This document shows positions 8,393-22,444 of a stretch of 64,000 bases of DNA, one piece after another. Within the stretch, counting starts at the first letter, position 1; every line of letters begins with the position of its first letter. The notes beneath the pieces are model-generated. The model had not been told where the DNA came from. It saw only the letters and a program-made list of their open reading frames with translations, and ran no database searches. Origin of the DNA: Xanthobacteraceae bacterium (GTDB taxonomy: Bacteria; Pseudomonadota; Alphaproteobacteria; Rhizobiales; Xanthobacteraceae); assembly GCA_029266425.1 (NCBI GenBank), contig JAQSWY010000006.1:62001-126000 (forward strand), written 5' to 3'. A program made the position numbers and the translations under genes.

Positions 8393-11146
8393 TCAGCCCA
8401 CCTTGCCGGCCAGGGAGCGCGTCGCCTGCGCGGTGATGTTGCGGATCGCCTGGCTGAGCTCGACATGGGCGGCCTGGCCCTTGGCGATGACGAGCTGGGC
8501 GTTCTTGCCGAGGATCTCGCGCTCGCGCGCCGAGAGCTCCTGCGCGGTGCAGACGATGACCGGAATATTGAGCCAGCGCTCGTCGCCGCGCAGATGCCGC
8601 AGGAAGCCGAAGCCGTTCAGCTCCGGCATGTTGAGGTCGAGCAATATGGCGAGCGGCGGCTCGTGCGTGGCGAGCCAGTCCATGCCCTCGCGGCCATTGC
8701 TGAGCGCGATGGCCTTGAACTCCAGCTTCTCAACCGCGCGGGTCATGATCTCACGCGTCGCCGGATCGTCCTCGACGATCAATATGGCGGCGTCCTTGGG
8801 GGCGGTGCCGACGACCGGCACGAGGTGGCGCTTCAGCACCTCGATCAGTTCGTTACGGTCGACCGGCTTGGTCAGCATGGCCGAGGCGCCGAGATTGAAA
8901 CCGAGGCTGCGCTCATTGGTGATGGAGATGATCACCACCGGGATCTCCGCGAGCTCGGGATCCTTCTTCAGCGCCACCAGCACCGACCAGCCGTCGACCT
9001 GGGGCATCATGATGTCGAGGGTGATGGCGTCGGGCTTGTGCAGCCGCGCCATCTCGATCGCCTCCGGCCCGGACTTGGCATAGAGCAGGCTGTAGCCCTC
9101 GCGGGCGAGGTGCGAGCCGATGATGTGGCCGGCGGACGGATCGTCGTCGACCACCAGAACCCGCGGTGCCGACCCTTGCTCGGCCGCCACCTCGACCGGG
9201 GCGGCGGGCTGATCCGCGGCGCCCTCCTCCTTCGTCTTCGGAGCCTCGGCCGGCAAGGTGAGGGTGAAGCAGGAGCCCTTGCCCGGCTCGCTCGCCACCG
9301 TTAGGTCGCCGCCGAGGGTGCGGGCGAAGCTGCGCGAGATGGCAAGGCCGAGCCCGGTGCCGCCGAAGCGGCGCGTGGTCGAATTGTCGGCCTGCGAAAA
9401 GGCCTGGAACAGCCGGCTCATCTGCTGCTCGCTCATGCCGATGCCGGTGTCCGTCACCGAGAAGGCGAGCTTGTGCCCGGCGGCACCCGAGGTGCGCTGC
9501 ACCTTCAGCGTCACCGTGCCGTCCTGCGTGAACTTGGTGGCGTTGCTCAGCAGGTTGAGCAGCGCCTGCTTCACCTTGGTGATGTCGGAGGAGACCTGGC
9601 CGATATCCGCAGGGCAGTCGACCACGAGCGTGTTGCGGTTGTTCGCCGCCAGGGGCGCCACCAGCGTCTCGACATCACGCACCAGGCCCGCCACGTCGAA
9701 GCTCTCGACATAGACCTCCATCCGCCCGGCCTCGATCTTGGAGAGATCGAGTATGTCGTTGATGAGGTGCAGCAGATGATTGCCCGCATTCTCGATCTTC
9801 TGCAGGTCGGGAATGGTCTCGGTGTTGCCGGCGTCGGTGGCGTCTTCCTGGAGGATCTGGCTGTAGCCGATGATGGCGTTGAGCGGGGTGCGCAGCTCGT
9901 GGCTCATATTGGCCAGGAATTCGGACTTCACCTGCGTCGCCCGGTCGGCCTCCTCCTTGGCAGCCTCGAGCTGGGCCTGACGGTGCTGGAGCTCGGTGAC
10001 GTCGGTATAGACTGCGACGATGCCGCCATCATGCGTGCGGCGCTCATTGATCTGCACCCAGCGCCCGTCGGCGAACAGCTCCAGGCGCCCGGTCTCCTCG
10101 CCGCGGTGGCGCAGCCTTTCGGCGATCCACTCCTCCGGCGGCCGGTCGGTGTGGATGCCGAGCTTGACCGCCGTCCGCAACACGTCGGTGAAGCTCATGC
10201 CGGGCACGATGTGCTCGCCGAGACCCGGCTGGAGCTGGCGATAATGGCTGTTCACCAGTTGCAGCCGGTCGTCCTTGTCATAGAGCGCGAAGCCCTGGTT
10301 GATGCTCTCGATGGCGTCGAACAGCGTGTTGCGCTGGTGCTCGGCCTCTTCCGCCAGCGTCTGGCGCTCTTCATAGCTGTCGCGCAGCAATTTGAGCGCC
10401 TCGGTCATCTCGCCGAGTTCGTCGCGCGAGGGCGGCGGCAGCTCGACCTCGTCATCGCCACGGGTGATGCCGCGTATCGCCGTCGACAAGCGGTGCAGCG
10501 GCGTGAGGATCGAGGACAGGATGATGTAGGTCAGGAAGCCGCCGAGCAGAACTGCGCCGATCGTCACCAGCATGGAGAAGCGGGCGCCGGCGCTGAATTC
10601 CTCCAGCACCCCTTGCCGGGCCGACTGGGCCTTGGCGCGCAGCTTGCCTTCTATGTCGTTCAGGATGCGGTCGACATCCATGCCGTCCTGGCGGGCCTGC
10701 GCGAACAGCGTGTTGCCGATCACCCGCTGCTCGTCCGTATAGGCGTCGACCGCCTGTCTGGCGACCGTATCGAAGCGCTGATAGCTCTGGCGCAGCGCGT
10801 CTGCCTCCGCCGGCAGCGTCGCCTTCAACTGGTCGATCTCGCGATCGAGGCGCGCGCGCGCATCGATGGCATTGTTCTCGGCGAGGGTGAGCAGGCTCAC
10901 CGCAAGGTCGGTCTGCCAGTAGCGCAGATCGTGGAAGGCGGAGCGCACGCCGGCCACGATGTCGAGCTGGTCGGCGATCTCCTGCGCTTCCTCCGTGGTC
11001 CTGGAGGCCTCGCCCAGCGTGCGCATCAGATAGAGGCTGCTGCCGATCATGGCGAGGAGCAGCACCACGAACAGGAACACCAGGCGGGCCGTAATGGAGA
11101 ATCGGCCGAGGAAATCCAGCCGCCCGCTTTCCATCTCCACGCTCAT
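8393..11146 (-). CDS. Hybrid sensor histidine kinase with two C-terminal receivers
   Basis: Inner-membrane sensor kinase of 917 aa. Order: helix 1 (about 20-42), a periplasmic helical region (43-190), helix 2 (191-214), HAMP (215-265), a PAS-like domain (273-385; NQGFALYDKDD), HisKA with phospho-acceptor H416 in MSHELRTPLN, HATPase with N box NLLSNATKF and G boxes DTGIGM and GGTGLGL, then receivers with D711 (TLDIMMP) and D837 (LLDLNMP). The ATG at 11146 overlaps the stop of the upstream heme-motif gene (ATGA), so the CxxCH protein is probably its sensory partner. Signal unknown; redox, NO or oxygen is plausible. Confidence 0.93.
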   Translation of the reverse strand: MSVEMESGRLDFLGRFSITARLVFLFVVLLLAMIGSSLYLMRTLGEASRTTEEAQEIADQLDIVAGVRSAFHDLRYWQTDLAVSLLTLAENNAIDARARLDREIDQLKATLPAEADALRQSYQRFDTVARQAVDAYTDEQRVIGNTLFAQARQDGMDVDRILNDIEGKLRAKAQSARQGVLEEFSAGARFSMLVTIGAVLLGGFLTYIILSSILTPLHRLSTAIRGITRGDDEVELPPPSRDELGEMTEALKLLRDSYEERQTLAEEAEHQRNTLFDAIESINQGFALYDKDDRLQLVNSHYRQLQPGLGEHIVPGMSFTDVLRTAVKLGIHTDRPPEEWIAERLRHRGEETGRLELFADGRWVQINERRTHDGGIVAVYTDVTELQHRQAQLEAAKEEADRATQVKSEFLANMSHELRTPLNAIIGYSQILQEDATDAGNTETIPDLQKIENAGNHLLHLINDILDLSKIEAGRMEVYVESFDVAGLVRDVETLVAPLAANNRNTLVVDCPADIGQVSSDITKVKQALLNLLSNATKFTQDGTVTLKVQRTSGAAGHKLAFSVTDTGIGMSEQQMSRLFQAFSQADNSTTRRFGGTGLGLAISRSFARTLGGDLTVASEPGKGSCFTLTLPAEAPKTKEEGAADQPAAPVEVAAEQGSAPRVLVVDDDPSAGHIIGSHLAREGYSLLYAKSGPEAIEMARLHKPDAITLDIMMPQVDGWSVLVALKKDPELAEIPVVIISITNERSLGFNLGASAMLTKPVDRNELIEVLKRHLVPVVGTAPKDAAILIVEDDPATREIMTRAVEKLEFKAIALSNGREGMDWLATHEPPLAILLDLNMPELNGFGFLRHLRGDERWLNIPVIVCTAQELSAREREILGKNAQLVIAKGQAAHVELSQAIRNITAQATRSLAGKVG

Positions 11147-11985
11147 TCGTTCGGCAGGATGACGCTGATGACGCCGCCGAGATCGTGCTCGGCCGCTCCC
11201 TCGCGCGGATAGCCGGTGATGTCGAGCGTACCCTTCGGCGTGCCGTGGCAGGTGAGGCACGAGGCGGCGTAATATTCCGGGACCATCATCCGGAAGGCCG
11301 GCTTGCCCTTGACCTCGACGGTCTCGGCATAGGGCGTCCCGGCTTTCCAGTCCTTGCTGAGGAAGCGGGCCTTGATGACCTCAGTCTCCCAGTCGTCCGG
11401 GCGCGCCTTGCGGTTGCGCACCAGTTCAGGCGGCGCCGTCACCTTCATCGTCGCGCCGCCTTCCACGCGGCGCGCGAAGGCTTCGTTGACGAGACGGGCG
11501 AAGGTCGCCGGGATGAAGCCCTTGAAGCCCAGGCCCTCGCGATTGATGATCGCCTGGTTGTCGTTGATCACGTCGGCGATGGCATCGCGCTGCGCCTTGA
11601 GCATCCGGCCCTGGCGGGTTGCGGGATCGTAGCTCGCCGGGTCGATCCCGGTCGCGGCCTTGTAATTGGCGTCGGCCTCCGCCAGCACCACGGCCGCGGT
11701 CAGCCCCTTGTCGCCGCGCTTCGGGTCGTTGATGTCCTCCTGGTGCTTGGAGATCACCGCCCGGGCGGATTGCAGCATCTTGGCGAGGCTGTCGGCAACG
11801 GTGCGCGACTCGGCGGCCTCGTCCGCGGCGCCCGACACGGCGATGCCGGTGATCAGGACGGACGACGCGACCAGAATGAGCGCGAGGCCCCGCGCAAGGC
11901 TGCGCGTGGTCGCCGGTGATTTGACAGCGTTCAAGGACACCCCCCCGGGTTGGTCCGCCGCGTTTTCCTGTATCCCCTTGATCAT
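11143..11985 (-). CDS. DUF3365 (Tll0287-like) heme-motif sensor protein
   Basis: Membrane-anchored extracytoplasmic protein (280 aa from the ATG at 11985). An N-terminal hydrophobic anchor (ARGLALILVASSVLITGIAV, about 31-50) is followed by a long helical region and a domain containing CLTCHG (C243, C246, H247), the single c-type heme motif expected of DUF3365/Tll0287-like sensors. It overlaps the hybrid kinase start by four bases, implying that it senses redox state or a gaseous ligand for that kinase. The start is uncertain: an in-frame ATG at 12051 and a GTG near residue 16 are alternatives, and none has a well-spaced ribosome-binding site. Confidence 0.85.
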   Translation of the reverse strand: MIKGIQENAADQPGGVSLNAVKSPATTRSLARGLALILVASSVLITGIAVSGAADEAAESRTVADSLAKMLQSARAVISKHQEDINDPKRGDKGLTAAVVLAEADANYKAATGIDPASYDPATRQGRMLKAQRDAIADVINDNQAIINREGLGFKGFIPATFARLVNEAFARRVEGGATMKVTAPPELVRNRKARPDDWETEVIKARFLSKDWKAGTPYAETVEVKGKPAFRMMVPEYYAASCLTCHGTPKGTLDITGYPREGAAEHDLGGVISVILPNE

Positions 11986-12149
11986 CCTATGCGCAACACG
12001 CGCGCGCAAGTTTCTCGGCGAAGTGGTGAATCTCCGCGCCGGAAAATGCATTTGCCGCTCGGTCAGGCGGATTTCCGCCCCGAGGGCAGTCCTTCACAGA
12101 TATCCCCTTCACTGGAGATGCCTTGCGGGCAGCACCGGCAGGCGGCGGC

Positions 12150-12985: not shown

Positions 12986-13444
12986 ATGGCTCGATTGACG
13001 ATCAATGGCGAGACCCGCGAAGTCGAGGCGGAGCCCGACACGCCGCTGCTCTGGGTGATCCGCGAGCAGGTCGGGCTCACCGGCACCAAGTTCGGCTGCG
13101 GCATCGCCCAGTGCGGCGCCTGCACCGTGCACATCGACGGCGTTCCCACCCGCTCCTGCGTCATGCCGATCAGCAGCGTCGAGGAGGGCTCGAAGATCGT
13201 GACCATCGAGGGCCTCTCGCCCGACGGCTCGCATCCGGTGCAGAAGGCCTGGCTCGCGCTCGATGTGCCGCAATGCGGCTATTGCCAATCCGGCATGATC
13301 ATGTCCGCGGCGGGCCTGCTCGAGGCCAATCCCAAGCCGACCGACGAGGACATCAGCAACGAGATCACCAATATCTGTCGCTGCGGCACCTATAACCGCG
13401 TCCGCGCCGCCATCCATATGGCGGCTGCCGACAAGGCCGGTTGA
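12986..13444 (+). CDS. (2Fe-2S) subunit of molybdenum hydroxylase (IorA-like)
   Basis: Small iron-sulfur electron-transfer subunit of a xanthine-oxidase-family enzyme (152 aa). The plant-type ferredoxin cluster is bound by C38, C43, C46 and C58 ([11 protein letters not shown]), and the second, helical 2Fe-2S domain by C97, C100, C131 and C133 (CGYC and CRC). It matches the small subunits of isoquinoline 1-oxidoreductase and periplasmic aldehyde dehydrogenases. It has no signal peptide; in this group it is exported with the Tat-tagged large subunit that follows. First gene of the operon. Confidence 0.95.
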
Positions 13445-13455
13445 GGGAGGACGCG

Positions 13456-15642
13456 ATGAATTACGTACCGACCGTTTCCCGCCGCAACTTCCTCGCCGGC
13501 TCCGCTGCCACACTGGGCGGCCTGTCGCTCGGCTTCCACGTGCCGCTGGACAATGGACCGTTCAGTGGTGAGGCCCTCGCCCAAGGCGCCGCGCCGGAGA
13601 TCAATGCCTGGGTGGTGGTGAAGCCGGACGACACCGTCGTCATTCGTGTCGCCCGTTCCGAGATGGGCCAGGGCACGCTCACCGGCCTCGCCCAGCTGGT
13701 CGCCGAGGAACTGGAATGCGACTGGTCGAAGGTGACCACCGAATATCCGACCCCCGGCCAGAACCTCGCCCGCGATCGCGTCTGGGGCAGCTTCTCCACC
13801 GGCGGCAGCCGCGGCATCCGCGATTCCCATGAATATGTCCGCAAGGGTGGCGCCACCGCCCGCGAAATGCTGATCGCCGCCGCCGCGGCGGCATGGAAGG
13901 TGCCGGCGAGCGAGTGCCGGGCCTCGAACAGCATCATCACCCATACGCCGACCGGCCGCACCACCACCTATGGCAAGGTCGCCGATGCCGCGGCGCGGAT
14001 GACCCCGCCGAGCGAGATCAAGCTGAAGGATCCGAAGGACTGGAAGGTCGCCGGCAAGCCGCTGCCGCGGCTCGACACCGTCGACAAGCTCACCGGCAAG
14101 CAGGTCTATGGCGCCGATCTCACCATGCCCGGCATGCTCAATGCCGCGGTGAAGGCGTGCCCGGTGTTCGGCGGCAAGGTGGCGAGCTTCAACGCAGCGG
14201 CGGTCGAGAAGATGCCCGGCGTGAAGAAGGTGCTGAAAGTCAACGACAACGCCGTCGCCGTCGTCGCCGACACCTGGTGGCGCGCCAAGGTCGCGCTCGA
14301 CAAGCTGCCCATCACCTGGGACGAGGGCCCCAACAAGGACCTCACCAGCGCCGCCATCGCCGAGACGCTGAAGGCCGGCCTCGACGCCAAGGACGCCTTT
14401 GTCGGCAACAGCCGGGGCGATGCCGGCGCTGCGCTGGCGGGGAGTGGGGCCAAGGTGGTGACGGCGATCTATGCCTTCCCGTACCAGAACCACGCCACAA
14501 TGGAGCCGATGAACGCGACGGCGGTCTACACCGCCGACAAGTGCGAGGTGTGGGTGCCGACGCAGAATGGCGAAGGCAGCCTCGCCGCGGTGGCGGAGGC
14601 CTCGGGCCTGCCGATCCAGCAGTGCGAGGTCTACAAGATCAATCTCGGCGGCGGCTTCGGCCGGCGCGGCAATTTCCAGGACTATGTCCGCCAGGTGGTC
14701 GCCATCGCCAAGACCATGCCCGGCACACCGGTCAAGCTGATCTGGTCGCGCGAGGAGGACATGCTCCACGGCGCCTATCACCCCACCACCCAGGCCAAGC
14801 TGACCGGCGCGCTCGATGCGCAGGGCAACGTGACCGCGCTGCACATGCGCATTTCCGGCCAGTCCATCCTTGCCGCGGTGCGGCCGGAGGGCATGCAGGG
14901 CGGCATGGATCCGGTGGTGTTCCAGGGCCTCACCGAGAAGGCCCCGGAGGGCCATCTCGGCTATACCGTGCCGAACCTCATGATCGACCACGCGATGCGC
15001 AATCCGCCGATCCCGCCGGGCTTCTGGCGCGGGGTCAATCTCAACCAGAACGCGCTCTATGTGGAGTGCTTCATCGACGAGCTGGCGAGCGCGGCCGGCG
15101 TCGAGCCGCTGGCCTTCCGCCGCAAGCTGATGGCGAACCATCCCAAGCACCTCGCGGTGCTGGAGGCGGCGGCCAAGGGCATCGGCTGGGACACCCCGCC
15201 GGAAAAGGGACGCGGCCGCGGCCTCGCCCAGATCATGGGCTTCGGCAGCTACGTCGCCGCCGCCGCCGAGGTGTCGGTCGATGGCGGGCAACTGACCATC
15301 CACCGCATCGTCGCCGCCACCGATCCGGGACACATGGTGAACCCGGCGCAGATCGAGCGGCAGGTGGAGGGCTCCTTCGTCTATGGCCTCTCGGCGTGCC
15401 TCTATGGCGAGTGCACGGTGAAGGGCGGGCGCATGGAGCAGGAAAACTTCGACACCTACGACGTGATGCGCATGGCGCAGATGCCGAAGGTCGAGACCAT
15501 CATTCTCCCTTCTGGCGGCTTCTGGGGCGGCGTCGGCGAGCCCACCATCGCGGTGGCGGCACCGGCGGTGCTGAACGCCATCGCCGCCGCCACCGGCAAG
15601 CGCTTCCGCACCATGCCCTTGAAGAACCACGAGCTCGCCTGA
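13456..15642 (+). CDS. Molybdopterin-binding large subunit of molybdenum hydroxylase (IorB-like), Tat-exported
   Basis: Catalytic subunit (728 aa) of a single-chain-Mo xanthine-oxidase-family enzyme of the IorB type, acting in the periplasm. A twin-arginine signal is present (SRRNFLAGSAATLGG, about residues 8-22). Cofactor and active-site landmarks are GQGTLTGLAQ, GGGFGRRGNFQDYV (cytosine-dinucleotide cofactor region) and the catalytic glutamate in GGVGEPT near the C-terminus, so it should be active. There is no FAD subunit, so electrons must leave through the 2Fe-2S protein, presumably to the cytochrome encoded next. I chose ATG 13456 behind a GAGGGAGG ribosome-binding site. The substrate is unknown: family members oxidise aldehydes or N-heterocycles, and the Sox context suggests a sulfur-containing substrate as an inference only. 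Confidence 0.93.
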   Translation: MNYVPTVSRRNFLAGSAATLGGLSLGFHVPLDNGPFSGEALAQGAAPEINAWVVVKPDDTVVIRVARSEMGQGTLTGLAQLVAEELECDWSKVTTEYPTPGQNLARDRVWGSFSTGGSRGIRDSHEYVRKGGATAREMLIAAAAAAWKVPASECRASNSIITHTPTGRTTTYGKVADAAARMTPPSEIKLKDPKDWKVAGKPLPRLDTVDKLTGKQVYGADLTMPGMLNAAVKACPVFGGKVASFNAAAVEKMPGVKKVLKVNDNAVAVVADTWWRAKVALDKLPITWDEGPNKDLTSAAIAETLKAGLDAKDAFVGNSRGDAGAALAGSGAKVVTAIYAFPYQNHATMEPMNATAVYTADKCEVWVPTQNGEGSLAAVAEASGLPIQQCEVYKINLGGGFGRRGNFQDYVRQVVAIAKTMPGTPVKLIWSREEDMLHGAYHPTTQAKLTGALDAQGNVTALHMRISGQSILAAVRPEGMQGGMDPVVFQGLTEKAPEGHLGYTVPNLMIDHAMRNPPIPPGFWRGVNLNQNALYVECFIDELASAAGVEPLAFRRKLMANHPKHLAVLEAAAKGIGWDTPPEKGRGRGLAQIMGFGSYVAAAAEVSVDGGQLTIHRIVAATDPGHMVNPAQIERQVEGSFVYGLSACLYGECTVKGGRMEQENFDTYDVMRMAQMPKVETIILPSGGFWGGVGEPTIAVAAPAVLNAIAAATGKRFRTMPLKNHELA

Positions 15643-15974
15643 TGCGCCTTAGCTATCTGCTGTTGCCGGCGCTGTGGCTTCTCGCCACCGCGCCGGCAGA
15701 AGCCGCGCCGCCGCGCGGCGCCACCTCCTGCACCGGTTGTCACCCGCGGTCAGCCACGAGCGGCCCCGTGCCGACGCTGACGGGACGCCCGGCGGATGAC
15801 ATCATCACCCAGATGAACGCCTTCAAGACCGGCGAGCGGCAATCGACGGTCATGGTCCGTATCGCCAAGGGCTTCTCCGATGAGGAAATCCGCGCCCTCG
15901 CAGACTGGTTCGCCAACGGCGCCAATGCGAGACCTGCCCAGCCAGCACCGCAGCCGCAGCCTGCCCAGCCGTAG
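15642..15974 (+). CDS. Monoheme cytochrome c, FCSD cytochrome subunit-like
   Basis: Periplasmic class I cytochrome c (110 aa) with a Sec signal (RLSYLLLPALWLLATAPAEA), one heme motif CTGCH at residues 30-34 and a probable axial methionine in TVMVRIAKGFSDEE. The segment AFKTGERQ...RIAKGFSDEEIRALADWFA is the signature of flavocytochrome c sulfide dehydrogenase cytochrome subunits (FccA/SoxE type). It starts within the stop of the preceding gene (TGATG) and its proline-glutamine-rich tail overlaps the next gene by 50 bases. It could accept electrons from the flavoprotein, the Mo hydroxylase, or both. Confidence 0.9.
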   Translation: MRLSYLLLPALWLLATAPAEAAPPRGATSCTGCHPRSATSGPVPTLTGRPADDIITQMNAFKTGERQSTVMVRIAKGFSDEEIRALADWFANGANARPAQPAPQPQPAQP

Positions 15975-17229
15975 GCGCGTGCTCGGCGGTATCGCCGCCG
16001 GCGCCACGGCAGCGATGCTGGGCGGGCCTTCCGCGCTCGCCCAGGCCGCGCCGCGTGTCGTCGTCATCGGCGGCGGCTTCGCCGGGGCGAGCTTCGCCCG
16101 TGCGTTGAGGCAGGAGGATGCGGGAATAGCGGTCACGCTGGTCGAACCCAATGCCCGATACACCGCTTGCCCGCTCAGCAACGCGGTCATTGCCGGGCTC
16201 CGCGAGATCGGCGCGCAGCAATTCGGTTATGACGGGCTCAAGAAGGACGGCATCGCGCTGGTGGCGCAGGCGGCGGTAGGCGTCGATCCCCAGGCGCGCC
16301 GGGTGCGGCTCGCCGACGGCACGAGCCTCGATTATGACCGTCTCGTCGTCGCGCCCGGCATCGACCTGCGCTTCGACGCCATCCCCGGCTATGACTCGAC
16401 GGCGGAGAATGAGATTCCCCATGCCTGGAAGGCGGGCGAGCAGACGCTGCTGCTGCGCCGGCAATTGGAAGCGATGGAGGATGGCGGCCTCGTCGTCATC
16501 TCCGCCCCGGCCAATCCCTTCCGCTGTCCGCCCGGCCCCTATGAGCGGGCGAGCCTCATCGCGCATTTCCTGAAGACCCGGAAGCCGCGCTCCAAGCTCA
16601 TCATCCTCGATGCCAAGGACGCGTTCTCCAAGCAGCGCCTGTTCGAGGCGGCCTGGCAGGAGCTCTATCCCGGCATGGTGGAATGGGTGGCGCTTTCCTT
16701 CGGTGGCCGCGTCACCGAGGTCGACGCGGCGACGAAGACGCTCACCACCGAATTCGGCAATCACCGTGCCGCGGTGGCCAACATCATCCCGCCGCAGCGC
16801 GCCGGCGCCATCGCCGCGAGCGTCGGCGTGGCGGACCAGACCGGCTGGTGCCCGATCGATCCGGTGAGCTTCGAATCCCGCCTGGTGCCGGGCATCCATG
16901 TCGTCGGCGATGCCGCCATCGGCGGCGCCATGCCGAAATCCGCCTTCACCGCCAACGCCCAGGCCAAGGTCTGCGCCGGTGCGGTGGCGAGTATGGTGCG
17001 CGGGCGCGAGCCCGAGGCGCCGAAGCTCATCAACACCTGCTACAGCCTGGTTGCGCCGGACTACGGCATCTCCATCGCCGGCGTCTATCGGCCGAAGGAC
17101 GGCCTGCTGGCCGAGGTCGAGGGCGCCGGAGGCATCAGCCCGCTCAACGCCCCGCGCTCGGTGCGCACTGAAGAGGCAGCCTTCGGCGAGGCGTGGTTCA
17201 CCACCATCACCACCGAGGCCTTCGGATGA
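15925..17229 (+). CDS. soxF: Flavocytochrome c sulfide dehydrogenase flavoprotein (FccB/SoxF)
   Basis: FAD-binding sulfide dehydrogenase subunit (434 aa) acting in the periplasm. A Tat signal is visible (SRRRVLGGIAAGATAAML, about residues 15-32). It has a dinucleotide fold VVVIGGGFAGASFAR at about 45-59, the ACPLSN cysteine region seen at the FAD in this family, FRCPPGPYERA, and a C-terminal FCSD domain with NTCYSLVAPDYGISI containing the second redox cysteine. It oxidises sulfide or polysulfide and passes electrons to a c-type cytochrome. The chosen ATG lies inside the cytochrome gene, which puts the whole Tat signal in the protein; later starts would delete it. Its stop overlaps soxX (ATGA). 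Confidence 0.92.
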   Translation: MRDLPSQHRSRSLPSRRRVLGGIAAGATAAMLGGPSALAQAAPRVVVIGGGFAGASFARALRQEDAGIAVTLVEPNARYTACPLSNAVIAGLREIGAQQFGYDGLKKDGIALVAQAAVGVDPQARRVRLADGTSLDYDRLVVAPGIDLRFDAIPGYDSTAENEIPHAWKAGEQTLLLRRQLEAMEDGGLVVISAPANPFRCPPGPYERASLIAHFLKTRKPRSKLIILDAKDAFSKQRLFEAAWQELYPGMVEWVALSFGGRVTEVDAATKTLTTEFGNHRAAVANIIPPQRAGAIAASVGVADQTGWCPIDPVSFESRLVPGIHVVGDAAIGGAMPKSAFTANAQAKVCAGAVASMVRGREPEAPKLINTCYSLVAPDYGISIAGVYRPKDGLLAEVEGAGGISPLNAPRSVRTEEAAFGEAWFTTITTEAFG

Positions 17230-17681
17230 AGGCCGCCGGGCATTGCGTGGCCTTGCTCGGCGCCGCCCTGATGGCGCCGCAGGAAGCCGGTGCCGCGGAC
17301 GTGCTCGCCACCTACAGCATCCAGGGGGACGCCATCGCCGAGCCGCTCGAAGGCAGCCGCGGCAATGCCGTGGCTGGCGCCGCGCTGATGGCGGACCGCC
17401 AGCGCAGCCTCTGCGTGCTGTGCCATTCCGGTCCGTTCCCCAACCCGCATCTGCAGGGCACGCTGGCGCCGGATCTCACCGGCATCGGGGCGCGGCTGTC
17501 GGAAGGCCAGATCCGGCTGCGCATCGTCGACATGAAGCACCTCAACCCGCAAAGCATCATGCCGGCGTATTATAGGCTCGATGCCGGTGAGAGGGTTGCG
17601 GGCGCGTGGCGCGGCAAGCCGGTGCTTCAGGCCGGCGAGATCGAGGATCTCGTCGCCTATCTCGTGACCTTGAAGGACTGA
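17226..17681 (+). CDS. soxX: Sulfur-oxidation cytochrome SoxX
   Basis: Monoheme c-type subunit of the periplasmic SoxXA enzyme (151 aa), which couples thiosulfate sulfur onto the cysteine of SoxY. A Sec signal (CVALLGAALMAPQEAGA) is followed by heme motif CVLCH (C63, C66, H67) and the Sox-type methionine ligand in NPQSIMPAYY (M112), ending in LVAYLVTLKD. Translationally coupled to soxF by an ATGA overlap. Its partner soxA is three genes downstream rather than adjacent. Confidence 0.93.
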   Translation: MKAAGHCVALLGAALMAPQEAGAADVLATYSIQGDAIAEPLEGSRGNAVAGAALMADRQRSLCVLCHSGPFPNPHLQGTLAPDLTGIGARLSEGQIRLRIVDMKHLNPQSIMPAYYRLDAGERVAGAWRGKPVLQAGEIEDLVAYLVTLKD

Positions 17682-17684
17682 CGT

Positions 17685-18104
17685 ATGGCGGATGGCGAGA
17701 CGCAGGTCAGGATCGGCGAGCGGGTGGTGACGCGGCCTTCGCTCGAGGAGACTATCCGCGACTTCACCGATGGCGCGCCGGTGCAGGCCGGGCGGGTCGT
17801 GCTCAGCGTCCCGCCGCTGGTCGAGAACGGCAATGCCGTGGGCGTCACCGTCACGGTCGAGAGCCCGATGACTTTGAGCGACCATGTGCGGCGCATCGCG
17901 CTGTTCAACGAGAAGAACCCGCAGCCCGATATCGCGGTGTTCCATCTCGGCCCCCGGGCCGGGCGCGCCCGGGTGGCGACGCGCATCCGGCTCGCCACCT
18001 CGCAGACCATGGTGGCGGTCGCGGAACTGAGCGACGGCAGCTTCTGGTCGGCAAGGGCGAACGTCATCGTTACGCTGGCCGCCTGCATCGAGGATCTGTC
18101 ATGA
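17685..18104 (+). CDS. soxY: SoxY-like sulfur carrier, atypical: no export signal, no GGCGG tail
   Basis: Homologue of the SoxY sulfur carrier (139 aa), recognised by VPPLVENGNAVGVTVTVESPM, DHVRRIALFNEKNP and VAELSDGSFWSA. Two features depart from the family. First, there is no Tat signal: the start codon follows the soxX stop by three bases, and the same frame is closed by that stop, so no upstream extension is possible. Second, the C-terminal swinging arm normally ends VTxGGCGG; here it reads VTLAACIEDLS, keeping a single cysteine (C134) but with five residues after it. Whether it is exported, or carries sulfur at all, is open. It overlaps soxZ by four bases. Confidence 0.88.
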   Translation: MADGETQVRIGERVVTRPSLEETIRDFTDGAPVQAGRVVLSVPPLVENGNAVGVTVTVESPMTLSDHVRRIALFNEKNPQPDIAVFHLGPRAGRARVATRIRLATSQTMVAVAELSDGSFWSARANVIVTLAACIEDLS

Positions 18105-18421
18105 CCCGCGCGCTGATCAATGTGCCGAAGACGGCGAGGCGCGGCGAGATCGTCGAGGTCCGCGCCATGATCGCCCACCCGATGGAGACCGGCTATCGCA
18201 TGGGGCCGAACGGCGTCGCCATCCCGCGCAACATCATCAAGCGCTTCGCCTGCACCTATGATGGCGAGGAGATCTTCTCCGCCGATTTTTCCCCGGCGAT
18301 GTCGGCCAATCCATACGTTGCCTTCAGCACGGTGGCGACCGCGAGCGGCCCGCTGCGCTTCAGCTGGACCGACGATCAGGGGAACACCGAGACGGCGAGC
18401 GCCGAGATCGTGGTCGGCTGA
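18101..18421 (+). CDS. soxZ: Sulfur carrier partner SoxZ
   Basis: Immunoglobulin-fold partner of SoxY (106 aa), typical in length. Landmarks are RALINVPKTARRGEIVEVRAMIAHPM, NIIKRFACTYDG and a C-terminal FSWTDDQGN. SoxZ normally has no signal peptide and travels across the membrane bound to Tat-tagged SoxY; because the SoxY here has no signal, the pair has no visible export route. Start ATGA-overlaps soxY, and the stop overlaps the soxA start (TGATG). Confidence 0.93.
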   Translation: MTRALINVPKTARRGEIVEVRAMIAHPMETGYRMGPNGVAIPRNIIKRFACTYDGEEIFSADFSPAMSANPYVAFSTVATASGPLRFSWTDDQGNTETASAEIVVG

Positions 18422-19197
18422 TGAACGGGCTGTGCGCCCTCGTCGCCGGCGGGGCAGTCTTCGCGGGCAGCGCCCTTGCCGCGGAAATTCCGCTCGCGGA
18501 GCGGCGCTCCGGCGCCGCCTTCATGGCTCCGGAGACGCAGGCCATGCAGGCGGACGACACCGCCAATCCGGGCATGCTCTGGGTGCTCCAGGGCGAGCAG
18601 ATCTGGAACGCGCCGGCCGGCACCTCCGGCAAGTCCTGTGCCTCCTGTCACAATGAGGCGGCGGCCAGCATGCGCGGCGTCGCGACGCGCTACCCGGCAC
18701 TCGACGCCGCGTCCGGAAAGCCGATCGATCTCGCTGGGCGCATCGCGCTCTGCCGGCGCGACAGGCAGGGCGCCCCCGAGCCGGCGCGCGAGAGCGACGA
18801 ACTGCTCGCGCTCTCGGCCTATGTCGGTCATCAATCGCGCGGCTTGCCCGTGGAGCCGCCGGACGATGCCCGCCTCGCCGCCTCCCGTGCCAATGGCAGG
18901 CGCCTGTTCGAGACCCCCATGGGCCAGCTCGATCTCGCCTGCGCCTCCTGTCACGACGACAATTGGGACAAGCGGCTCGGCGGCAGCGCGGTCACCCAGG
19001 CGCACCCGACCGCCTATCCGCTCTACCGCCTCGAGTGGCAGGCGCTCGGCTCGCTGCAGCGGCGCATGCGCAGTTGCATGGTCGGCGTGCGCACCGAGCC
19101 GTTCGCCTTCGGCTCGCAGGAATTCATCGATCTGGAGACGTTTCTGATGTCGAGGGCCGCCGGCCTGCCGGTCGAGACGCCGGGGGTGCGGCCATAG
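18421..19197 (+). CDS. soxA: Diheme sulfur-oxidation cytochrome SoxA
   Basis: Catalytic subunit of SoxXA (258 aa). A Sec signal (LCALVAGGAVFAGSALA) precedes two heme motifs CASCH at 73-77 and 174-178, so it is the diheme type. The active-site cysteine (C219) is present in LQRRMRSCMVGVRTEPF and would carry the persulfide and ligate heme 2. It looks fully functional. Last gene of the operon; no soxB or soxCD follows, only a palindromic repeat and a convergent kinase gene. Confidence 0.93.
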   Translation: MNGLCALVAGGAVFAGSALAAEIPLAERRSGAAFMAPETQAMQADDTANPGMLWVLQGEQIWNAPAGTSGKSCASCHNEAAASMRGVATRYPALDAASGKPIDLAGRIALCRRDRQGAPEPARESDELLALSAYVGHQSRGLPVEPPDDARLAASRANGRRLFETPMGQLDLACASCHDDNWDKRLGGSAVTQAHPTAYPLYRLEWQALGSLQRRMRSCMVGVRTEPFAFGSQEFIDLETFLMSRAAGLPVETPGVRP

Positions 19198-19324: not shown

Positions 19325-20824
19325 TCAAGCCGGCGAGCGCTTGCCGAGCGGGAGGCCGACGGTGCGCGCCGGCTTGGGCGCGCTCTTGCCCTCGCTCGGC
19401 AGTTCGGCGTAGGGCAGGCTGATGGTGGCGATGAGGCCGCTGCCGGTATTGGTCAGGGTGACGTCGCCGCCATGGTGGCGCACGATGTTGCGGGCGATGG
19501 AGAGCCCGAGCCCGATGCCGCCGGTCTCGCGGTTGCGCGAATTCTCCAGCCGGAAGAACGGCGCAAAGACACGCTCGATCGCTTCGGCATCGATGCCCGG
19601 CCCGTCATCCTCGACCACGATCTCGATCGCCGAGGGACCCGAGCGCAGCGAGACCCGCGCCCGCTCGCCATAGCGTACCGCATTCTCGACGAGGTTGCGC
19701 ACTGCGCGCTTCAGGGCGTCGGCGCGGCAGCGATAGCCGATCTTCGGCGCGTCCAGGCAGGTTACGTCGTGGCCGATCTCGACGAGGTCGTCGCACAGGC
19801 TTTCCACCAGCGCGGTGAGATTGACGTTGCGCGTCACCTCCTCGGTCGCCTGCTCGCGCGAGAAGGCGAGCGTCGCCTCGGTCATGGCGCGCAATTCGTC
19901 GAGCGTCGAGAGCATCTTCTCGCGCGTCTCGTCGTCGGTGACGAACTCGGTCCGCAGCCTGAGCGAGGTGATCGGCGTGCGCAGATCATGGCCGATCGCC
20001 GCCAGCATGCGGGTGCGATCCTCGACGAAGCGCTGCAGCCGCGCCTGCATCAGGTTGAAGGCCACGGCGGTCTGGCGGATATCGTCCGGCCCGCTTTCGG
20101 GAAGCGGCGTCACGCTCTCGCCACGGCCGAGCGCCTCGGCGGCCACCGCCAGCCGGCGCATCGGCCGCGTCATGCCGCGGGCGATGAAGGCGGCGCATAT
20201 GGAGAGGATCACCGCCGTCACCGCCAGCGAGATGATCGACTGCGTCGTCCACATGCCGTTCACCATCTTCTTGGCGAAGGCGGTGCTCAGCCACGAGCCG
20301 TCCTTGAGCTGGACCGCGAGGCCCATGCCGTTATCCTCGCCGAGATAGAGGAATTTGGCCGGCCGCGACAGCGGCCAGGCATATGGGGGCATCTCGGTCC
20401 ACGACGATTGCGGGCGCTCGGTGGCCGGCGAGGCGAGCGGCGGTGCTGGCGTCGGAGCAGCAGCACCGGCGGTTGCCGGCATGCCGGCGAGGTTCGCAAC
20501 GGTGGGCAGCGGCTCGGCGAGCCGGCCGAGGGCGTCCATGCGCCAGGCCGAGACGTCGGAAGGGAAGTCCCGCGTCACCCAGAAGCGGGTGTAGCCGGTG
20601 GCGCTGGCCCGCAATATGTCGTTCTGCAGCGCCGGCGGCGTGGTCTCGAGCAACTGGGCCACCGAGGCGCTGCGGCTGAGGAATTCGGTCTTCGCCGCCT
20701 TGACCAGCGCCTGGCCGCGCTCATCCAGGAACAAGAGGAAGCTGATGCCCTGCGACAGCGCAAGGGCGAGCAGCATGATCGCGACGAAGCGCGCGGTGAG
20801 GCTGCGGTTCCACAGGCCGATCAT
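19325..20824 (-). CDS. Two-component sensor histidine kinase
   Basis: Inner-membrane sensor kinase (499 aa). Helix 1 is at about 12-33, a periplasmic sensor of about 160 residues contains an alanine-proline-rich stretch (residues 117-135), helix 2 is at about 196-217, then HAMP, HisKA with H279 in AAIGHDLRTPITS, N box NLVENAVRYGE, and G boxes EDDGPGID and GGIGLGLSIARNI. It resembles EnvZ/RstB-type kinases. The ATG at 20824 overlaps the stop of its response-regulator gene (ATGA). Convergent with the Sox operon, so a role there is only a possibility. Confidence 0.92.
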   Translation of the reverse strand: MIGLWNRSLTARFVAIMLLALALSQGISFLLFLDERGQALVKAAKTEFLSRSASVAQLLETTPPALQNDILRASATGYTRFWVTRDFPSDVSAWRMDALGRLAEPLPTVANLAGMPATAGAAAPTPAPPLASPATERPQSSWTEMPPYAWPLSRPAKFLYLGEDNGMGLAVQLKDGSWLSTAFAKKMVNGMWTTQSIISLAVTAVILSICAAFIARGMTRPMRRLAVAAEALGRGESVTPLPESGPDDIRQTAVAFNLMQARLQRFVEDRTRMLAAIGHDLRTPITSLRLRTEFVTDDETREKMLSTLDELRAMTEATLAFSREQATEEVTRNVNLTALVESLCDDLVEIGHDVTCLDAPKIGYRCRADALKRAVRNLVENAVRYGERARVSLRSGPSAIEIVVEDDGPGIDAEAIERVFAPFFRLENSRNRETGGIGLGLSIARNIVRHHGGDVTLTNTGSGLIATISLPYAELPSEGKSAPKPARTVGLPLGKRSPA

Positions 20825-21540
20825 TGCGGTGCGACCTCGGCCGAGAAGCTGTAGCCGCCGCCCCAATGGGTCTTGATGAGGGTCGGCGACTTCGGGTCGG
20901 CCTCGATCTTCTTGCGCAGCCGGCTGACCTGGTTGTCGATGGCGCGGTCGAACGGCTCGGCATTGCGCCCGACCGTGAGGTCGAGCAGCTGGTCGCGACT
21001 CAGCACCAGCCCGACATGGTCGAGGAACACGCTGAGCAGGCGGAACTCCGCGGTACTGAGCGGCACGACGAGCCCGTCCTCGCCGATCAGCTCGCGGCGC
21101 CCGACATTCAGCGACCAGCGATCGAATTGAACTTCCTTCGCCTTGAGCTGCCCGCGCTGCGGCGGCAGGCTCTGCACCCGGCGCAGCACCGCCTTGATGC
21201 GCGCCAGCAATTCGCGCGGATTGAACGGCTTGGAGAGATAGTCGTCGGCACCGAGCTCCAAGCCGACGATGCGGTCGGTCTCTTCCGCCATGGCGGTGAG
21301 CATGATGACCGGCAGATTGGTCGATTCCCGCAAATAACGGCACAGCGAAAGGCCGTCCTCGCCCGGCATCATCACGTCGAGCACGACAAGATCGATAGCA
21401 TTGCGCTCGAGCAGGCGGCGGCACGCCGCCGCGTTCTCTGCAAGGCTGGTGCGGTAGCCATGGCGATGAAGGTATTTACCGACCAGATCGCGGATGTCGC
21501 GATGGTCATCGACAATGGCGATGTGCGGCGCTGCGTCCAT
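20821..21540 (-). CDS. OmpR-family response regulator
   Basis: DNA-binding response regulator (239 aa): receiver with D11/D12 and phospho-acceptor D55 (LVVLDVMMPG), DDYLSKPF lysine motif, and an OmpR/PhoB winged helix from about 135 to the end (LSTAEFRLLSVFLDH, then RKKIEADPKSPTLIKTHWGGGY). Partner of the kinase it overlaps. Its own promoter should be in 21541-21830, where ATTCGAAGGCG at about 21698 faces GCGCCTCGAAT at about 21719, a possible autoregulatory site. Confidence 0.93.
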   Translation of the reverse strand: MDAAPHIAIVDDHRDIRDLVGKYLHRHGYRTSLAENAAACRRLLERNAIDLVVLDVMMPGEDGLSLCRYLRESTNLPVIMLTAMAEETDRIVGLELGADDYLSKPFNPRELLARIKAVLRRVQSLPPQRGQLKAKEVQFDRWSLNVGRRELIGEDGLVVPLSTAEFRLLSVFLDHVGLVLSRDQLLDLTVGRNAEPFDRAIDNQVSRLRKKIEADPKSPTLIKTHWGGGYSFSAEVAPQ

Positions 21541-21830: not shown

Positions 21831-22082
21831 ATGACCAAGATCATATCCACCCTGAGCCTCGCGACCCTGCTTGGCGGTATCGCTCTGTCGCCGGCCTATG
21901 CACAGACCGACGCTTATAAGCGGGACGCCTATCGCGGGACCCCGCGCGGCCAGAGCGCGCTCACCGTACCGGCGCCGAGGGGGCCGGTCATCGAGGGCCG
22001 CAATGTCTATATGGCGCCGCCCGCCGACGCCGTCGAGCCTTACATCCGCCGTTCCGAAGAGAGCGACCGCCGCAGCAAGTGA
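21831..22082 (+). CDS. Small secreted protein, paralogue 1 (83 aa)
   Basis: Unrecognised small periplasmic protein. A Sec signal (KIISTLSLATLLGGIALSPAYA) leaves a mature chain of about 58 residues that is polar and predicted disordered. Its end, VIEGRNVYMAPPADAVEPYIRRSEESDRRSK, shares the pattern EGRN...VEPYI.R..ES..RS with the next gene, which is also 83 aa. The two are evidently tandem duplicates. A ribosome-binding site is weak (GGGAAGTG). Confidence 0.72.
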   Translation: MTKIISTLSLATLLGGIALSPAYAQTDAYKRDAYRGTPRGQSALTVPAPRGPVIEGRNVYMAPPADAVEPYIRRSEESDRRSK

Positions 22083-22192
22083 GCGCGGCGCCGGCAGACG
22101 ACGCAATCACCCGTGTTGCCATTGCGGGCAACGAACTCCCCACAACCAGGCGCCCTCCACGCGAGGAGCGCCCCAATCAGGGAATACACCCC

Positions 22193-22444
22193 ATGAAGAG
22201 CACCATACTCGCGCTCGCGTCAGTGGGAGCCGTCCTGCTCGGCTCCGCCGTCACCGCAGACGCCGCCGGCCGTGACGACACCTGGAGCGAGGGCTGGAGG
22301 CAGAGCGTCACCAATGGTCAGCCTCAACCTTCGCAGGCCCCGGTGACCGAGGGACGCAATGCGGCATCCAACCCCCAGGTCCAGGTGCAGGGCGTCGAGC
22401 CCTACATTGCCCGCCAGATCGAGAGCAACAGCCGCAGCCGCTGA
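22193..22444 (+). CDS. Small secreted protein, paralogue 2 (83 aa)
   Basis: Second member of the tandem pair, same length. Sec signal (STILALASVGAVLLGSAVTADA), then a polar mature chain with VTEGRN at residues 51-56 and VEPYIARQIESNSRSR at the end. No cysteine, no catalytic motif. I chose ATG 22193 because the signal peptide begins there; an in-frame start at 22079 would prepend a non-signal leader. Function unknown. Confidence 0.72.
   Translation: MKSTILALASVGAVLLGSAVTADAAGRDDTWSEGWRQSVTNGQPQPSQAPVTEGRNAASNPQVQVQGVEPYIARQIESNSRSR

Follow-up and report, generated by a model that had tools for sequence, protein, structure and literature searches.

A SoxB-lacking sox operon that combines a xanthine-oxidase-family molybdenum enzyme with an AACIE-type SoxY carrier

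Introduction

Divergent SoxY carriers have been proposed to serve in organosulfur, tetrathionate or alcohol metabolism (excerpts of PMC11237559). A sox cluster that includes a xanthine-oxidase-family molybdenum (Mo) enzyme has been described once, as the 'second sox cluster' of Starkeya novella (soxX2Y2Z2A2F2 plus the Mo enzyme, Snov_1982-1975; Kappler and Nouwens 2013, PMC3797975). According to excerpts of that paper, expression of the cluster was very low with glucose, with methanol and with thiosulfate, and proteomics missed its SoxAX and SoxYZ and found one subunit of flavocytochrome c sulfide dehydrogenase (FCSD) at a low level. Among excerpts of the open-licence literature, this was the sole account that we found of such an enzyme within a sox cluster, and the terms 'AACIE arm protein' and 'SoxY-related' were not mentioned. 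Here we describe an operon of this type from a Xanthobacteraceae bacterium, located in a stretch of 64,000 nt (assembly GCA_029266425.1, contig JAQSWY010000006.1, positions 62,001 to 126,000; hereafter the window), and compare it with its relatives. The operon type is already in print and its arrangement is not new; what we add is the assignment of its SoxY to the TIGR04487 family, the co-inheritance of this SoxY with the Mo subunit IorB, the sox-linked IorB clade, the optional nature of FCSD, the invariant residues and the loss of a signal peptide.

Results

Gene content of the operon

Eight genes, all on the plus strand, are tightly packed into one operon between positions 12986 and 19197 of the window (Table 1), bearing out the original prediction of co-directional genes in near-contact. 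The junctions in operon order are +11, −1, −50, −4, +3, −4 and −1 nt, lengths that depend on start codons chosen from the sequence. The genes had been described as 'fused into one operon'; they do form one operon, but none of them is fused to another. Likewise, the proposed identities of IorA, IorB with its twin-arginine (Tat) signal, the FCSD flavoprotein, SoxX, SoxZ and SoxA stand, whereas the SoxY is a TIGR04487 protein and not a true SoxY.

Table 1. Genes of the operon and of the adjoining two-component pair (window coordinates; scores in bits, Pfam or NCBIfam cut-offs in brackets).
Gene	Position	Strand	Product and sequence features	Profile and structure matches
iorA	12986..13444	+	[2Fe-2S] small subunit of xanthine-oxidase-family Mo hydroxylase, 152 aa, eight Cys	PF01799 97.1 (30.3); PF00111 37
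iorB	13456..15642	+	Mo-binding large subunit; twin-arginine signal SRRNF; Glu in GVGEP	PF20256 110.1 (27); PF02738 105.1 (27)
cytochrome	15642..15974	+	monohaem cytochrome c, CTGCH, signal-like N-terminus; FCSD-type small subunit or electron acceptor
fccB	15925..17229	+	FCSD flavoprotein; twin-arginine signal	PF21706 165.7 (27); PF09242 88.7 (26)
soxX	17226..17681	+	monohaem cytochrome	TIGR04485 70.7 (61)
soxY-like carrier	17685..18104	+	tail VTLAACIEDLS, without export signal	above TIGR04487 cut-off, below TIGR04488 cut-off
soxZ	18101..18421	+	carrier partner	TIGR04490 95.3 (76); 2ox5_Z, E 5.6e-22
soxA	18421..19197	+	dihaem cytochrome; Cys219 ligand (presumed catalytic) and Arg215	TIGR04484 218.4 (110); 1h31_A, E 1.6e-47
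histidine kinase	19325..20821	−	candidate regulator, outside the core; cluster found in 23 of 73 sources, counting the window	HAMP, HisKA, HATPase_c
OmpR-family response regulator	20821..21540	−	candidate regulator; a cluster with a representative that matches it by eye occurs in 19 of 73 sources, window copy excluded	PF00072, PF00486

The Mo enzyme has the hallmarks of the xanthine oxidase family, namely the Mo cofactor (Moco) domains, two [2Fe-2S] domains and the conserved Glu of GVGEP, which we take to be the base of this family, in agreement with the alignment to 8gy3. The closest solved structure to IorB is an aldehyde dehydrogenase large subunit (8gy3_C, E 2.2e-70, match nearly full-length); none of the listed NCBIfam equivalog cut-offs was reached by the Mo enzyme, the best match of IorB being XdhA with 176.4 of 780. 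The assignment of FCSD rests on the PF21706 and PF09242 domains, an adjoining cytochrome, and Cys201 and Cys372, presumably the redox pair as in the A. vinosum FCSD; FccB also matched the solved structure 5n1t_A with E 8.9e-144. The cytochrome scored below its Pfam cut-off (PF13442, 21.7 versus 27 bits). Visual inspection assigns twin-arginine signals to IorB and FccB, and signals of a Sec-like kind to SoxX, SoxA and the cytochrome.

Conservation and co-inheritance of the Mo enzyme and SoxXYZA

We compared the operon with three sets of loci, which total 125 and overlap in some genomes. Set A holds the best 80 of 334 relatives of the window SoxY from a scan of genome contigs and is biased toward close relatives. 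Set B comprises 26 loci of the class, 21 above the TIGR04487 cut-off and five below it; these five were taken, for their non-GGCGG tail, from eight that we read, and in the remaining three, which are GGCGG loci (L145-L147), no iorAB was seen. Set C contains 19 loci. Rows with short flanks (15 of 80, 3 of 26 and 2 of 19 in sets A, B and C, the last including L115) were left out of the gene-content counts. The 387 genomes from which the set B loci were read, evenly drawn from the class, served to lessen the identity bias of set A.

The gene-order search that the original prediction had called for showed that the order is kept: all eight genes were present in order at 52 of the 65 full-flank set A loci, with iorA, iorB and soxX each found at 64, fccB at 61, and soxZ and soxA at all 65. 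At the full-flank loci of the class (23 of the 26 non-GGCGG loci read), soxX, soxZ and soxA were again present throughout, alongside iorB at 22, iorA at 21, fccB at 16 and the cytochrome at 12. The Mo enzyme and SoxXYZA are hence nearly constant and the sulfide dehydrogenase is optional, so that electrons need not pass through FCSD. The conserved order reaches many families, a Luteimonas (L030) and a Rokubacteria metagenome-assembled genome (MAG; L048), and the 22 class genomes with an AACIE SoxY span 16 genera and 12 families.

We then searched the 387 class genomes for IorB, scoring the two best candidates per genome; all counts from this search are among the matches listed. An IorB at least 60% identical to that of the window was present in 32 genomes, two of these matches being partial. 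Below this value came three loci at 51-52% (G132, G228 and G307) and then, a partial match at 47% aside, only identities of 44% and less. All 22 genomes with an AACIE SoxY, as defined by the TIGR04487 cut-off, had such an IorB, compared to 10 of the 365 others (p 1.6e-28). Seven of those 10 carry an AAC-, GAC- or SAC-tailed SoxY inside the iorAB operon (L140-L144, L180 and L181), and another, G393, has a sub-threshold SoxY some 480 bp from the iorB match on one contig, at a locus that was not read.

Phylogeny of the Mo subunit, another of the checks originally suggested, placed the sampled sox-linked IorB in one clade of 48 rows; the branch that parts it from ten rows of paralogs or unlinked copies has 100/100 support. 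These ten rows make up the whole outgroup side (seven paralogs from the window genome, which are among its other IorB-type proteins of about 40% identity or less, and three from near relatives), and the tree is without the IorB copies of G115, G136 and G307. The clade takes in loci that lack FCSD, the Luteimonas and Rokubacteria loci, and L115, where iorA-iorB-soxY-soxZ stand alone on their contig in a genome (G033) that also has a soxXA and fccB cluster (L116). Gene content, the complete co-occurrence and the IorB clade agree with the earlier view of the Mo enzyme and SoxXYZA as a conserved, co-inherited unit, and judging from these sequences the operon very probably encodes a dedicated carrier module that is inherited as such and works independently of SoxB.

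More distant combinations of the same genes were also seen. L177 (3857-15191) holds on one strand two tandem iorAB pairs (38-39% identity in IorB), SoxYZ that bears a YGACVED motif and is extended at the C-terminus, a PF03781 protein resembling sulfatase-modifying factors, a cytochrome, FCSD and SoxXA. At L178 (7988-12239) and L179 (3050-8212), GAC- or SGC-tailed SoxYZ lie beside distant iorAB (37-39%), which suggests that the link between IorAB and SoxYZ predates the AACIE family.

Catalytic residues

The residues expected to matter for catalysis are kept across the three sets. In SoxA, Cys219 and Arg215, which we take to be the catalytic pair in line with the alignment to 1h31, were found in 77 of 77, 26 of 26 and 18 of 18 covered orthologs (sets A, B and C); the haem motifs were invariant where covered, with Arg217 replaced by His once. 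SoxX retained CxxCH and Met112 (79/79, 26/26 and 18/18), IorA its eight Cys (68/68, 21/21 and 18/18), IorB the GVGEP Glu (70/70, 24/24 and 18/18 covered orthologs) and the cytochrome the first Cys and the His of CxxCH (56/56, 13/13 and 15/15). Cys201 and Cys372 of FCSD were kept in every covered ortholog, Cys82 and Cys350 being variable, and the tail Cys of SoxY was invariant in covered orthologs. A stop inside the matched stretch (shown as X) occurred in 3 of 107 IorA, 13 of 84 cytochrome and none of the IorB translations.

Absence of SoxB and SoxC, and the identity of the carrier

In agreement with the original prediction, neither SoxB nor SoxCD is encoded in the operon, and searches of the draft genome (5.67 Mb in 222 contigs, 91.65% complete, 7.51% contaminated) did not find SoxB or SoxC either. 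The SoxB profile (TIGR04486) gave no match at E 0.001 in this draft and none in the single-contig genome of a sister species (G022), and the top SoxC (TIGR04555) score in the draft was 37.2 bits against 420; genome searches of this kind begin with a first look that may miss matches. No second sox operon, complete or otherwise, was found in the draft by SoxB, SoxC and SoxY searches. The SoxY profile had two other, weak matches there, on contigs C87 and C175, in frames of 286 and 313 aa that are long enough for fused SoxYZ-like carriers. The operon falls short on tests that define Sox proper.

Across genomes, SoxB was not associated with the AACIE SoxY: of the class genomes, 4 of the 22 that carry this SoxY had SoxB over its cut-off, as did 35 of the 365 others (p 0.26). 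Among 61 relatives, 18 have an AACIE SoxY and eight of those 18 also have SoxB. Altogether, SoxB over the cut-off is missing from 27 of 39 distinct AACIE-SoxY genomes (18 relatives and 22 class genomes, with the window genome in both).

The carrier itself clears the 172-bit cut-off of TIGR04487, the 'SoxY-related AACIE arm protein', with 203.4 bits and stays under the 125-bit cut-off of TIGR04488, the profile of true SoxY, with 93.9; its tail reads AACIE, not GGCGG. All 125 SoxY of the three sets have an AAC, GAC or PAC tail, which is partly a selection effect.

These data bear on an inorganic variant of Sox, in which IorAB would replace SoxCD and oxidise carrier-bound sulfane from thiosulfate or sulfide, with FCSD feeding in and sulfate or sulfite being released without SoxB. 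Such a scheme would account for the intact Cys/Arg pair of SoxXA and for the frequency of FCSD. It fits less well with a tail that is not GGCGG and with the 18 of 22 class genomes that lack SoxB over the cut-off, and no xanthine-oxidase-family enzyme is known to oxidise sulfur. Also in favour of the scheme, SoxCD is likewise a Mo enzyme, related to sulfite oxidase, and acts on SoxY-bound sulfur (excerpts of PMC5336275). The very weak expression of the S. novella cluster on thiosulfate (excerpts of PMC3797975) speaks against thiosulfate, however, and in B. diazoefficiens thiosulfate use needs soxY1 and not soxY2 (excerpts of PMC5748708), a gene that may or may not be of the AACIE type. On balance, we consider the inorganic variant unlikely.

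A second possibility is the oxidation of aldehydes or alcohols with SoxYZ as a thiol handle, proceeding from a hemithioacetal to a thioester, in the manner of quinoprotein-associated SoxYZ-like carriers. The aldehyde dehydrogenase structure closest to IorB points in this direction, SoxYZ-like carriers next to alcohol dehydrogenases are documented (excerpts of PMC11237559 and PMC12997753), and the two weak SoxY matches in the window genome have, by length, room for fused SoxYZ. The profile of the quinoprotein-associated carrier (TIGR04557, cut-off 140) was nevertheless reached neither by SoxY (56.6 bits) nor by SoxZ (49.4 bits), the two being encoded separately, and no metallohydrolase or pyrroloquinoline quinone (PQQ) enzyme is among the eight genes. 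Moreover, the sulfur-conjugating cytochromes SoxX and SoxA are present in 23 of 23 full class loci, and expression in S. novella was also very weak on methanol (excerpts of PMC3797975). We therefore regard this reading, too, as improbable.

A carrier without a signal peptide

In the classical Sox system, the Tat signal of SoxY exports SoxYZ, with SoxZ riding as a passenger. The window SoxY begins with MADGETQVRIGERVVTRPSL and has no signal peptide. An in-frame stop at 17679, 6 nt ahead of its start, leaves no upstream start and no room for a signal. The same signal-less form is present in the sister species G022 (L099), where the N-terminus is MADETPAEIAQKTRPSL. A crude heuristic recognised a twin-arginine signal on SoxY at 120 of the 125 loci; of the doubtful ones, which were judged by eye, four more have RR and a hydrophobic stretch (L009 and L104, whose contigs are equally long, L048 and L124), making L099 the only true exception.

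An assembly error was rejected as the cause, given that the single-contig G022 shares the form and that soxY is under purifying selection. Between the window and G022, its dN/dS was 0.233 at a dS of 0.35, and the values for the eight operon genes (0.10-0.35) resembled those of signal-bearing control pairs (0.05 to 0.38). By this measure, the carrier is maintained without a signal of its own. Read-through from soxX was considered as well, as soxX and soxY share a frame in the window (17679-17687) and in L099, split by TGA and one codon. It was rejected: each of the three possible frame relations is common among 123 loci (42/34/47), and the shared frame is probably a coincidence.

The operon might instead be decaying in the window genome, with a carrier that lost its signal and no longer works. 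What speaks for this is that a signal-less SoxY occurs in the window and L099 but in no other of the 125 loci. Since the form is common to two species, one of them with a single-contig genome, and since soxY has the low dN/dS given above and the catalytic residues are kept, we consider decay very improbable. Lacking its own export signal, the carrier would either be taken into the periplasm by some other Tat substrate or function in the cytoplasm. Given that classical SoxZ already relies on a partner for export, the most economical guess is that the signal-less SoxYZ now leaves the cytoplasm together with a different Tat substrate encoded in the operon.

Neighbouring genes and the methanethiol link

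No accessory gene outside the operon was frequent among 73 sources, in which Moco maturation genes were not searched for; the most common neighbour was the two-component pair of Table 1. Upstream in the window, a Tll0287-like domain protein (PF11845) with CxxCH (11143-12051, minus strand) adjoins a long hybrid histidine kinase frame (8393-11260). Downstream of the operon lie small, secreted-looking proteins that share 'EGRN...VEPYI' stretches (22079-22444 and 21831-22082 in the window, the latter with no Pfam match; 13810-14328 in L020). In L082 (14000-15616), the operon is followed downstream by a gene whose product combines PF03781 with a domain resembling guanylate cyclase; the cluster of this protein was found in 12 of the 73 sources.

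Methanethiol had been among the compounds originally suggested for a comparison of transcription, and we looked at SBP56, the methanethiol-oxidase family. In 7 of the 73 sources, the region some 4-7 kb downstream of the operon contains an SBP56-like gene (one representative confirmed by Pfam), and the window genome has one SBP56 elsewhere (G000:C41:6231-7604, L118). The co-occurrence is weak at best: SBP56 is present in 4 of 22 class genomes with an AACIE SoxY versus 27 of 365 without (p 0.09), and in 6 of 32 with the IorB group versus 25 of 355 (p 0.03, among the matches listed). Of the genomes of the genus that were searched, only the window genome and G022, the two signal-less species, have SBP56. 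We rejected the link as a general explanation, while it may hold in single lineages.

Discussion

We propose that the operon encodes a SoxB-independent periplasmic module in which SoxXA would load a carrier and IorAB would oxidise an organosulfur substrate, an explanation to which, taken as a whole, we assign a probability of about 45%. As the presence of SoxA suggests, SoxXA would join a thiol or sulfane compound oxidatively with the tail Cys of SoxY(AAC)-SoxZ. IorAB could then use water to oxidise the bound compound or a carbon fragment released from that compound; electrons would exit via IorA and the cytochromes, and FCSD, where present, would remove sulfide or sulfane sulfur. If, for example, R-CH2-S-S-SoxY were hydroxylated at the carbon, an aldehyde would be released and a persulfide left on the carrier, which would explain why a Mo hydroxylase related to aldehyde dehydrogenases lies beside a sulfide dehydrogenase. 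An organosulfur (C-S) compound is a likelier substrate than thiosulfate, and organosulfur chemistry on the carrier, as a claim of its own, can be put forward tentatively.

Several observations weigh against this proposal. Both the substrate and the action of IorAB on SoxYZ are things that we infer from gene sequences, and characterised xanthine-oxidase-family enzymes, to our knowledge, act on carbon centres and not on carrier-bound sulfur. The missing SoxY signal in the window genome fits poorly with a purely periplasmic model. One genome, G115, has iorA-iorB-soxX-soxA without soxYZ (L172, 8849-12913) and no listed SoxY match. G307 has one iorAB (L176) with no sox gene across the 18 kb that were read, in addition to its iorAB-soxYZA locus at 51% (L175); in G136, iorAB (L173) is on a different contig from the sox genes (L138), and in G138 iorB and soxY are on separate contigs, with soxY at a contig edge. 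Furthermore, because expression was so low, Kappler and Nouwens suggested that the cluster is functionally insignificant in S. novella, or else active under other conditions (excerpts of PMC3797975).

The G307 and G136 loci, whose IorAB belong to the same group, would also suit a reading in which IorAB works on its own as a hydroxylase, for instance of N-heterocycles, and has no more in common with a sox remnant than the operon and the cytochrome acceptors. The co-occurrence in 22 of 22 genomes, the single sampled clade and an order that is kept in many families, including in L030 and L048, argue against this to the extent that we find it quite improbable.

Should IorAB act on the carrier as proposed, this would extend the xanthine oxidase family to a type of substrate new to it and give the Sox carrier a role in the chemistry of organosulfur or carbon compounds. 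It is even conceivable, if doubtful, that IorAB is a second, independently evolved Mo enzyme acting on a substrate bound to a SoxY carrier, that SoxB-free C-S oxidation extends across Alphaproteobacteria and beyond, and that one lineage exports its carrier as a Tat passenger. The near one-to-one link between tail motif and Mo enzyme group makes the proposal testable in cultured Ancylobacter, Bradyrhizobium and Methylobacterium, whose loci were among those read. In gene surveys, SoxXYZA without SoxB may pass for a thiosulfate oxidation system.

Among known systems, the S. novella second cluster is the most similar. It has the same gene set, again without SoxB or SoxCD inside, and the eight genes of L100 (G010) are 63-85% identical to those of the window. 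The two differ in that S. novella has a complete sox cluster with SoxB besides, none being found in the window genome, and in that the heuristic assigns a Tat-like signal to the L100 SoxY but not to that of the window. With canonical Sox (SoxXYZABCD), the operon shares SoxX, SoxA and SoxZ above the curated cut-offs, as well as the Cys/Arg pair of SoxA; it departs from it in the AACIE tail, the score below TIGR04488 and the lack of a SoxY Tat signal, in having no SoxB or SoxC that we could find, and in drawing its Mo enzyme from another family. The quinoprotein-associated SoxYZ-like carrier (TIGR04557) also lies next to a periplasmic dehydrogenase in an operon without SoxB, but is a fused protein with a PQQ enzyme and a metallohydrolase as partners (excerpts of PMC12997753), unlike the carrier of the window. 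By score and tail, the window SoxY belongs to TIGR04487, a family that is typed 'exception' and whose name states no function, and differs from it in lacking a signal peptide. Finally, IorAB resembles the Mo aldehyde dehydrogenase branch in its domains, the GVGEP Glu, the Tat signal and the match to 8gy3_C, whereas the window IorB falls into a separate, sox-linked clade.

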